Source: Mesoterricola silvestris
GTDB lineage: Bacteria; Acidobacteriota; Holophagae; Holophagales; Holophagaceae
Assembly (NCBI RefSeq): GCF_030295405.1
Contig: NZ_AP027080.1
Coordinates: 1,612,001 to 1,676,000, forward strand
Length of the DNA stretch: 64,000 nt
Reading direction: 5' to 3'
Part shown: positions 4,224 through 6,735 of the stretch, piece by piece
Numbering within the stretch: position 1 is the stretch's first letter
Layout: each line of letters starts with the position of its first letter
Program-made: the position numbers and the translations under genes
Notes under the pieces: model-generated
Databases searched by the model: none
The model's input: the letters and a program-made list of their open reading frames with translations, nothing else
What the model was told of the DNA's origin: nothing

Positions 4224-5129
4224 ATGGAGCAGGCGGTCTCGAATTTCCGCTCGAGTCTGGCGAACCAGGCCAATGGCCTGTACGACCGGGCCGCGCGGGC
4301 CTTCCCCCCCTTCGGGAAGGGCGGGGACTTCATCCGGGAGGTGCTGCGGAAGTACCACCATGACGACTGCCTCTCCTACGCCGCCAGCCTCAGCTTCTTC
4401 ATGACCATTTCGCTGATCCCGCTGACGACGCTGTTCTTCAAGCTGCTGGTGCTGATGCTGGGCAGCGGCGCCTACAGCGCCTCCCTGCAGCGGGCCATCG
4501 GGTCCATGTACCCCTACCTGCCCCAGGGCTTCATCGCCGACAGCATCGCCCACAGCCGCAGGATCGGCGGCATCGGCCTGAGCTGGGTGGTGCTGCTGGT
4601 GGGCGCCCACTGGGGCGTGAACCAGCTGGACCGGTCCCTCTCCCACATCTTCGGCCTGCGCATCAAGGTGCACCGCCAGACCCGCAAGCACAACCTGCTG
4701 CGCCGCCTGGGGGTGGTGCTCATGGGCCTGGCCTTCCTGGTGATCCTCCTCACCGCGGGCTTCGAATGGAGCCTCCGGCGCCAGGCCCCGTTCTCCCCCA
4801 TCCTCATGTTCACCTTCCTGCCGCCGTGCCTGGGCCTGCTGCTCATCACCCTCATCCTCCAGCACATCCCCCGCCGCCACGTGAAGTTCCGCCACGCCTT
4901 CCTGGGCGGCGCCGTCACCACCAGCCTCTGGTGGGTGGCCAAGGCCGGCTTCGGCTACTACCTCATCCACACCCCCACCTGGGGCATCCTCTACGGCTCC
5001 CTGGGCAGCCTCATGGCGGCGCTGGTCTTCCTCTACTACAGCTGCGCCATCTTCATGCTCGGCGCGGAAGTGACGGCGGCCTTCTACCGGCACGAAACGG
5101 GGGCGTACGAGGTGGCGAAGGGGCGGTGA
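4224..5129 (+). CDS. YihY/BrkB-family inner membrane protein
   Basis: 301 residues with about six transmembrane segments. The opening of the domain (YAASLSFFMTISLIPL, near 51-66) is typical of the YihY/virulence factor BrkB family, once misannotated as RNase BN. The family occurs widely but its transport or envelope role is not established. The start codon follows the upstream small membrane gene by 4 bases, so the two are almost certainly co-transcribed. Its 3' end abuts the large palindromic repeat at 5131-5560. Confidence 0.85.
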   Translation: MEQAVSNFRSSLANQANGLYDRAARAFPPFGKGGDFIREVLRKYHHDDCLSYAASLSFFMTISLIPLTTLFFKLLVLMLGSGAYSASLQRAIGSMYPYLPQGFIADSIAHSRRIGGIGLSWVVLLVGAHWGVNQLDRSLSHIFGLRIKVHRQTRKHNLLRRLGVVLMGLAFLVILLTAGFEWSLRRQAPFSPILMFTFLPPCLGLLLITLILQHIPRRHVKFRHAFLGGAVTTSLWWVAKAGFGYYLIHTPTWGILYGSLGSLMAALVFLYYSCAIFMLGAEVTAAFYRHETGAYEVAKGR

Positions 5130-5130
5130 T

Positions 5131-5560
5131 CGTGCGTGTCCCGGACGGGCGCCACTGATTCGCTGACGCAGGCAAGCTGCGTCAGCGGAAAGCTCACCGG
5201 ACGGGGGTGAGGGTGGGTGTTGCCACGCTCCGGCTTCGATGGACGATGGGGGGCTGGGGGGGGGCCGGGCTCTCCGGATGGGCCTATGGCCCTTGGACCC
5301 GCTTCGAGTTTCCTGGCGGCGCCATGGGGTCCGCGCCGACGTTGACTGGTTAGCGTCGGCGCGAATCCGTTTCCTGCCGGATCACTTGAAGCGGGCCCAA
5401 GGGCCATAGGCCCAACCGGAAGGCCCTCCCCTCCAGCCTGCCCAAAGGCCCATCGAAGCCGGAGTGTGCGAACACGTCTGCCGCACCCCGGGGCGTGAGC
5501 TCTCCGTCGACGCAGCTTGCCTGCGTCGACGAAACGGGGCGCGAATCCGGGACACGTACG
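5131..5560. repeat. large (about 430 bp) imperfect palindrome between convergent genes
   Basis: Matching inverted segments are nested around a centre near 5346: 5135-5145 with 5546-5556 (11/11), 5161-5187 with 5505-5531 (each also an 11-bp-stem hairpin with a 5-base loop), 5228-5242 with 5450-5464 (15/15), 5279-5302 with 5391-5414 (23/24), and 5332-5341 with 5354-5363 (10/10). Weaker complementarity fills the gaps. It occupies the whole space between the 3' ends of two convergent genes, where it could act as a two-way terminator, but its size is far beyond a normal terminator. It contains no credible gene. Confidence 0.85.
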
Positions 5561-5577
5561 CCTAATTGACCCCGACC

Positions 5578-6735
5578 CTACATATCGTCGAAAAGCGATG
5601 GCTGGAGGACGCGGGTGGTGTCGGCGAGGGGGTAGTCCTTGGCGGGGGAGGGGCGCTCGGGGAGAAGGGGCCGGAGGGGTGGATGTCGGGGGAACCAGCG
5701 GATGGCGGGGGTGGATGGCGGCCAGGAAGGCCTGGACGGCGCCTTCGAGGGGACGGCGGGGACGCGGAGGTGGGCCTCGGCGGGGAGGAGGAGGTCGGCA
5801 AGGGGGCGGGGGAAGGCGCAGCGGGATTCCAGGGAGACGGGGTCCCGGGGGTCCGCGGCCAGGGCGGGGGTGAAGGAGGGGGGGGCGGGGGGGAGGGGCA
5901 GGGCGGCGCGCCAGGGGAGGCCCTCGTTCATGGCCTGGCGGCCCAGGTCGGCGGCGGCGCGGGGGTCGGCGCTCACGCCGGGGTGGATGGGGCAGCGCAG
6001 CGCCTTCTCCAGGTGGGAGGCCAGGTCCCGCACGGCCCGCGCGGCCCGGTCCCAGTCGGCGCCGGAGAGCTGCCACTCCCGGCCCCCCAGGAAGGAGACG
6101 CGCCATCCGGTGCGCCGGCGCTGGAAGGGCAGGGCCATGGGCCAGGCGCCGGCCTCCATGCGCAGGCTGATGGCCTTCTCGGAACGGGCCTGGGCGTCCT
6201 CCAACACCCGGGCCAGGTCCGCGGGGTCCTGGTGCTCCACGGCGCCCAGGGGCAGGATGAGCTCGCCCCAGAGCCAGCCGGGGCTCTCGGTCTCGGCGGC
6301 GGCGCCCTTGCCGGGCAGGGACCAGGAGCCGGATTCCTGGGGGACCCAGCCGATCCAGCCCTGGCGCCAGGCCAGGCCCAGCTCGCCCAGGGGCATGCGG
6401 GGGGCGTGGAAGGCCACCCGGGCCGGTTCCCGGAGGAGGTCGGCGAAGGCCTCGTCCCGCACGTGGACCGTGAGCCCGCGGGTGTGGGTGAGCACCTTCC
6501 ACCAGCCCAGGCGCACCTCGGGGGGGAGGTCCCGGATCCAGTCCACGGGGCCGTCCCACAGGAGGGAGAAGCCCCGGGGCAGGCGCCCCGCGAGATCCGC
6601 CAGCACGCCCAGGGCCTCCCAGGGCGCCGTGGCCACGGAGAAGGACGCGTCCAGGGCGCGCACGCCGCCCCACCCGGCGTAGGGCACGTCGTCGCCGGTG
6701 TGGAGCAGGTAGCCCCGTCCCTCCTGGCGCCTCAC
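5578..6735 (-). CDS. hypothetical protein translationally coupled to thiD
   Basis: 385 residues from a GTG at 6735 that overlaps the thiD stop (GTGA), implying translational coupling. The sequence is soluble-looking, rich in Trp, Arg and Pro, with no signal peptide or membrane segment, and no family is recognised. The first part (LLHTGDDVPYAGWGGVRALD) suggests an ordered domain; the last 60 residues are Pro/Ser-rich and end in QPSLFDDM. QPSLF fits the loose QxxLF pattern used by proteins that bind the DNA sliding clamp, but that is only a short-motif resemblance. Ends 17 bases from the large palindrome. Confidence 0.6.
   Translation of the reverse strand: MRRQEGRGYLLHTGDDVPYAGWGGVRALDASFSVATAPWEALGVLADLAGRLPRGFSLLWDGPVDWIRDLPPEVRLGWWKVLTHTRGLTVHVRDEAFADLLREPARVAFHAPRMPLGELGLAWRQGWIGWVPQESGSWSLPGKGAAAETESPGWLWGELILPLGAVEHQDPADLARVLEDAQARSEKAISLRMEAGAWPMALPFQRRRTGWRVSFLGGREWQLSGADWDRAARAVRDLASHLEKALRCPIHPGVSADPRAAADLGRQAMNEGLPWRAALPLPPAPPSFTPALAADPRDPVSLESRCAFPRPLADLLLPAEAHLRVPAVPSKAPSRPSWPPSTPAIRWFPRHPPLRPLLPERPSPAKDYPLADTTRVLQPSLFDDM

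Follow-up and report, generated by a model that had tools for sequence, protein, structure and literature searches.

A 430-nt palindrome between convergent genes of Mesoterricola silvestris belongs to a dispersed repeat family at gene 3′ ends and is probably derived from a CTAG-targeting transposon

Introduction

Repeat elements of the MITE, RUP, NEMIS and REP kinds are already known (PMC2229807, PMC10969869, PMC1525189). A REP is a palindromic unit of 21-65 nt (PMC1525189). The RUP of Streptococcus pneumoniae, 107 bp long, has been proposed to be a MITE of IS630-Spn1 with a TA target, and the Correia/NEMIS elements of Neisseria (107-155 bp) are dispersed inverted repeats whose transcripts have been proposed as RNase III targets (both PMC2229807). 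Insertion sequences of the IS630/Tc1-mariner group, such as ISY100, use TA as their target (PMC2170065); a preference of IS630 for CTAG is named in the title of Tenzen and Ohtsubo 1991, as cited in PMC2170065.

Here we analyze a 430-nt quasi-palindrome (positions 5131-5560) within a 64,000-nt stretch of Mesoterricola silvestris DNA (herein the window; NZ_AP027080.1, positions 1,612,001 to 1,676,000). The repeat family that it represents (herein family A) resembles REP/BIME in that its extragenic palindromes are enriched between convergent genes, but it is ten times longer, has a different anatomy and has relatives containing relics of DDE transposases. With RUP it shares an intergenic location, many copies, the lack of a protein and, probably, DDE-transposon-type ends and a TA-containing target; unlike the 107-bp RUP, it has ~212-nt arms with covarying hairpins of their own, and its placement follows CTAG at stop codons. 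Correia/NEMIS are likewise dispersed inverted-repeat elements, but family A is three to four times longer and of different sequence. A literature search, with most subscription papers outside its reach, returned no description of family A or its arms, and none that places GxxExxY proteins in transposons.

Results

The palindrome comprises five nested pairs of inverted segments (5131-5153/5538-5560, 5159-5206/5486-5533, 5217-5251/5441-5475, 5259-5309/5384-5434 and 5327-5346/5349-5368) that are 80-84% complementary and share one centre near 5346-5348, much as a first-pass annotation of the window had described. The predicted fold of its + strand has an energy of -346.6 kcal/mol, compared with -212.5 ± 6.2 kcal/mol for shuffled sequences (z = -21.7). 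The outermost units had been taken for hairpins in themselves, and each indeed contains one (herein H1; 5161-5187 and 5505-5531). The claim that the element fills the gap between the two genes exactly is nearly right: 430 of the 448 nt between the stop codons (TGA 5127-5129; TAG 5580-5578, minus strand) are palindromic, and the remaining 18 nt correspond to a terminal segment on the right. The features of the locus are as follows; the window copy is locus L054, and window coordinates of the arms equal L054 coordinates plus 2624.

4224..5129, + strand: left convergent gene, BrkB/YihY family membrane protein, stop TGA (ORF; Pfam PF03631, E = 2.7e-37)
5131..5577, no strand: whole palindromic element of family A, with 5560-5577 as the terminal segment probably reaching the right-hand TAG stop
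5134..5345, + strand: left arm, one unit (profile positions 2-212; nhmmer with the arm profile, E = 4e-51)
5161..5187, + strand: local hairpin H1 of the left arm, 11-bp stem (97.8% paired; two-sided changes in 7 of 11 pairs)
5217..5242, + strand: conserved inner block GTGTTGCCACGCTCCGGCTTCGATGG of the left arm (this and the next two blocks are kept among copies and at most weakly coupled between arms)
5267..5289, + strand: conserved inner block GGGCTCTCCGGATGGGCCTATGG of the left arm
5333..5345, + strand: conserved inner block GCGCCGACGTTGA of the left arm, adjoining the centre
5346..5349, no strand: central loop, 4 nt (4-87 nt in other copies of this genome; 741 nt, with a transposase relic, in locus L087 of the sister genome G005)
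5350..5557, - strand: right arm, the left-arm unit placed head-to-head (nhmmer with the arm profile, E = 8e-49)
5505..5531, - strand: local hairpin H1 of the right arm, 11-bp stem (95.3% paired; two-sided changes in 5 of 11 pairs)
5578..6735, - strand: right convergent gene, uncharacterised, TAG stop 5580-5578 (ORF without Pfam match; start approximate)

Because the right-hand 18 nt (5560-5577) can be aligned with the terminal segment of full-length relatives, the element probably extends up to the right-hand stop codon. On this side the arm passes into the 18-nt segment and then directly into the TAG stop of the right gene, and GTAG + 18 nt + GTACGTGTCCC in the window is the counterpart of CTAG + 18 nt + ATACGTGTCCC in copy L086 of G005. 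A clean target duplication is absent at the window copy, which has TGA on the left and GTAG on the right.

A DNA search of the window's own genome (herein G000; a single contig of 4.99 Mb) gave 104 matching pieces that resolve into 40 loci (L045-L084). A divergent subfamily contributes additional loci, and family A thus comprises at least 40 loci, or ~50 when divergent subfamilies are counted; the first-pass annotation had proposed such a search and would have given up its reading had there been no second copy. Self-complement alignment identifies 22 of the loci as full palindromes of 420-526 bp, in which two ~212-nt arms stand head-to-head, and the others are degenerate, one-armed, or mini palindromes of 85-91 bp consisting of the ends only. 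The H1 motif, with up to two mismatches, occurs 63 times in the genome, compared with no occurrence of a reversed control pattern. Two earlier suggestions are supported by these data: a mobile unit, by the many copies and by presence and absence between species (see below), and two head-to-head copies of one element, by the inverted ~212-nt arms and by solo arms at L060, L065, L071 and L076. At L076 (2499-3623), ~470 nt containing a short gene separate a full element from a further single arm, and this arm borders directly on the following 3′ end. Weaker members of family A are found in three other genomes of the genus; outside it, there was no match among 35 family- and class-level relatives, and the palindrome has no match in a plasmid collection.

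Long palindromes are difficult to assemble, and an assembly or foldback artefact would be one way to obtain such a sequence. It is refuted by arms that differ at ~25% of positions, by copies that differ mutually and by relatives in independent genomes, and we regard its probability as negligible.

Within G000, 35 of the 40 copies lie no more than 27 nt from a stop codon and 23 lie between convergent genes (7 of 47 neighbouring gene pairs in the window are convergent), figures that are approximate because the automatic codon-usage gene caller missed some genes. Between co-directional neighbours, the element abuts the stop of the upstream gene and leaves at least ~60 nt before the next start. 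The description "REP/BIME-like" holds for location only. Extragenic palindromes between convergent genes are indeed what REPs are (PMC1525189), but a REP measures 21-65 nt (PMC1525189), about a tenth of the 430 nt of the window element or the 420-526 nt of the full palindromes, and the ~212-nt arms are transposon-like. Membership of REP/BIME was rejected on size; relatives of the window element, moreover, hold DDE and not Y1 transposases, and it is very improbable that these are REP/BIME-type repeats mobilised by a RAYT (Y1 transposase).

The tetranucleotide CTAG is rare in the window: 17 sites are observed, compared with 184 expected from base composition (~11-fold depletion) and 63 expected from trinucleotides. 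Nine of the 17 coincide with stop codons, which make up ~0.3% of the sequence. Stops that abut elements are more often TAG (34/50 vs 45/120 elsewhere, p = 4e-4) and more often part of CTAG (22/50 vs 21/120, p = 5e-4). YTAR within 25 nt on both sides is found for only 7 of 39 copies, with a shuffle mean of 1.1, and in the full-length copies L085 and L086 of G005 each side has a CTAG that stands exactly 19 nt beyond the arm. Since the genome avoids CTAG except at TAG stops, a transposon that targets CTAG would insert at 3′ ends, and the location of an element exactly between converging gene ends would follow from insertion at a site that is kept almost only at stop codons.

Searches of five sister species with the flanking sequences of eight copies allowed six orthologous sites to be compared. 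At four of the six there is an empty gap of ~50-110 nt in a sister species (G001 at L046 and L054; G004 at L046; G002 at L049 and L058). In the L058 gap of G002, a single CTAG is shared by the overlapping stop codons of the two convergent genes. Elsewhere the site holds foreign genes, a 763-bp palindrome of an unrelated kind (G001, L045 site), a mini version of family A with an IS630/GxxExxY unit after it (G005, L046 site) or a different subfamily of family A (G002, L055 site). The empty sites indicate that the element comes and goes. Deletion of the element could in principle account for the empty gaps; given how varied the occupants are, these gaps have more likely received insertions repeatedly.

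An alignment of the arms (219 columns) shows 96 columns conserved at ≥90% and 51 at ≤60%, with conserved blocks alternating with variable spacers. The pairing of H1 is kept by compensatory changes: 96.5% of cells are paired, and 66 cells carry two-sided changes, compared with 14.9 ± 4.2 in shuffles, affecting 12 of the 22 pairs; the signal is destroyed when the pairing partner is slid. Pairing between arms has 56 two-sided cells in the outer helix (30.5 ± 3.8 expected from shuffles) and is weakly supported in the inner part. Likewise, over the outer 90 nt an arm is closer to its partner in the same element than to arms of other elements (z = 3.9 to 8.6), an effect that falls to z = 2.4 in the next block and shows no excess beyond. 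The H1 covariation and outer-helix coupling therefore favour a form with an outer helix and one hairpin per arm, and evolutionary support for the rod-like minimum-energy fold of the whole element is partial. Global RNA folding of copies with their flanks was uninformative in this G+C-rich DNA, and self-complement alignment was used instead. Rfam yielded nothing credible (mir-629, below threshold at 37 bits vs 72, is a generic long-hairpin match). Changes between arms that are compatible with G·U pairing show a strong strand bias per element (L063 32:3, L053 2:23, L055 21:3, L080 20:3); the bias is unrelated to loop orientation, and an element-intrinsic orientation or stranded RNA was dropped as its explanation.

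The likeness of outer arms within elements would also be expected if each palindrome had arisen independently where it stands, through template switching during replication between convergent genes, and some copies of a parallel family in sister species (family B, below) have direct partial-arm copies and a gene-end piece on both sides. As the sole origin this is refuted by ~50 copies of one sequence family over 212 nt, and we give it very little credence; template switching could well act as a polisher of the arms.

H1 covariation and inner-block conservation show that the arms are under constraint, and the blocks within arms are conserved beyond the needs of a dead relic, which counts against reading them as one. 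This constraint may come from transposition, with the blocks as putative transposase sites, or from use as a 3′-end structure. In either transcript the element would fold into a very stable structure, and the host could maintain it by selection as a bidirectional 3′-end structure, in which the transcribed, hairpin-rich arms would terminate or block transcription, or stabilise the RNA, for both convergent genes. Stabilisation of mRNA ends and cleavage by RNase III, both raised in the first-pass annotation, would be possible fates of so long a hairpin. Placement at 3′ ends throughout, the covarying H1 stems, the coupling of the outer ~90 nt and the conserved inner blocks between variable spacers are all consistent with this; yet placement is already accounted for by CTAG targeting, the inner arms are uncoupled within elements, and the same gaps in sister species manage without the element. 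The pattern of an intrinsic terminator (stem-loop followed by a T-run) gave no sites in window positions 4900-5800; by pattern, with no T-run, the element is not a terminator of this type. Selective maintenance for such a host function is thus possible but rather unlikely as the explanation; a transposon origin and a present host function are compatible (exaptation).

Family B, in the sister genome G001, has ~20 loci: palindromes with ~260-nt arms that lie at 3′ ends, 10 of the 20 between convergent genes. Of 43 arm ends, 17 have CTAG at exactly 9 nt, and at many of the rest a single change would produce it. In G002 (C14), a transposase of the IS630 type (DDE_3) lies together with a GxxExxY gene between 269-bp arms that are 92% identical, and the element is bounded by CTAG at two convergent TAG stops. 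Transposase relics are present inside G001 palindromes, and one palindrome there contains a complete GxxExxY gene. Family B thus consists of a long-armed IS630-type transposon and its gene-less derivatives; it is inserted at CTAG and differs from IS630 insertion sequences in its ~269-bp hairpin-rich arms and internal GxxExxY (PD-(D/E)XK) gene. Near their ends, families A and B have a common core, CGTGTCCCGnnCCTTCGT, with 16 of 18 positions matching (as good in 6 of 2000 shuffles; post hoc), and the arms show no homology beyond these 18 nt. By analogy, family A may be the counterpart of family B with another transposase.

GxxExxY genes (PF13366/TIGR04256) occur inside giant palindromic IS630-type elements at L148, L178, L144 and L223 (G001, G002). 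Eight nearly identical copies in G005 (L146, L150, L153, L157, L159, L161, L164 and L166) each adjoin a ~147-bp palindrome, seven with an adjacent full-length IS630-type transposase; their near identity points to recent spread. G001 has more than 40 such genes or fragments (L152, L156, L160, L162, L165, L168, L170 and ~30 further places), many flanked by CGCGGAG-rich 53-bp inverted repeats with identical flanks, resembling another amplified family. At L178, L179, L180 and L175 of G001, family-B palindromes have extra direct copies of a truncated arm with a gene 3′-end piece, CTCAAGCGCCTCCTGACCCAGCT; at L178 the truncated-arm copies flank the palindrome on both sides, as if it had grown by template switching.

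For family A, locus L087 of G005 has CTAG-bounded arms (219 bp), with one inverted terminal sequence common to both sides, that enclose a 157-codon relic of a DDE_5 transposase, which we take to be of the IS701 type. Full-length DDE_5 elements of G005 are likewise located at CTAG; unlike family A with its 210-nt arms, they have short terminal repeats of ~20-37 bp. This one relic in one sister genome may mark the transposase of family A, or it may be a nested insertion into the loop. In G000, neither a DDE_3 (IS630-type) transposase nor a relative of the L087 transposase was detected, so the mobiliser is absent or unrecognised there, and the copies look like fossils or rely on something unrecognised. 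A tblastx search of G000 loops for remnants of transposase coding sequence gave only composition-driven noise, and none of the six GxxExxY genes of G000 lies at a family-A element. An origin as an IS630-derived MITE was examined in its own right: TAG/CTAG stops are enriched, the ends share only the 18-nt core with family B, and no IS630 was detected in G000.

Discussion

The window element is probably MITE-like and non-autonomous, derived from a DDE transposon that targeted CTAG, and its hairpin-bearing arms are unusually long (~210 nt). It has the terminal inverted repeats, multiple dispersed copies and lack of coding capacity of a MITE, and both occupied and empty orthologous sites exist. 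Several findings count against this reading: no mobiliser was detected in G000, the transposase link of family A comes from one relic that may be a nested insertion, YTAR flanks only 7 of 39 copies on both sides, the window copy has no clean target duplication, and blocks within the arms are better conserved than a dead relic would require. Repetition, placement, variable occupancy, enrichment at CTAG/TAG stops and covariation in H1 and the outer helix are features of the sequences themselves; from these we infer that a DDE_5 (IS701-type) transposase mobilised the family, and also the sequence of steps given next. Ancestors of family A would have inserted at CTAG, which in this G+C-rich genome is left at TAG stops, above all at the shared ends of convergent genes, and insertions would consequently abut 3′ ends. 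Target duplication on insertion would leave a TAG stop on both sides; the window copy would have retained the right-hand TAG, while its left end would have eroded and now reads TGA.

We offer, as a speculative and on balance doubtful extension, that these families represent a class of bacterial transposons in which ~210-270-nt arms of conserved local hairpins serve as insulators. Insertion into the shared CTAG of overlapping convergent stops would regenerate both stops, give both host genes a structured 3′ end and block read-through into the element, and unrelated transposases (DDE_5; IS630-type with a GxxExxY PD-(D/E)XK protein) would have adopted the same solution in one genus.

The analysis supplies a concrete reason for palindromic repeats between convergent genes: the target is a tetranucleotide confined by selection to stop codons, and harmful insertions need not merely have been purged. 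It shows that giant palindromes (0.4-1.8 kb) can persist as multi-copy families in bacterial chromosomes, and, for this genus, it locates the GxxExxY proteins, which are widespread but uncharacterised, within IS630-type transposons. The system allows a direct test of whether transposon arms turn into 3′-end structures of host mRNAs.
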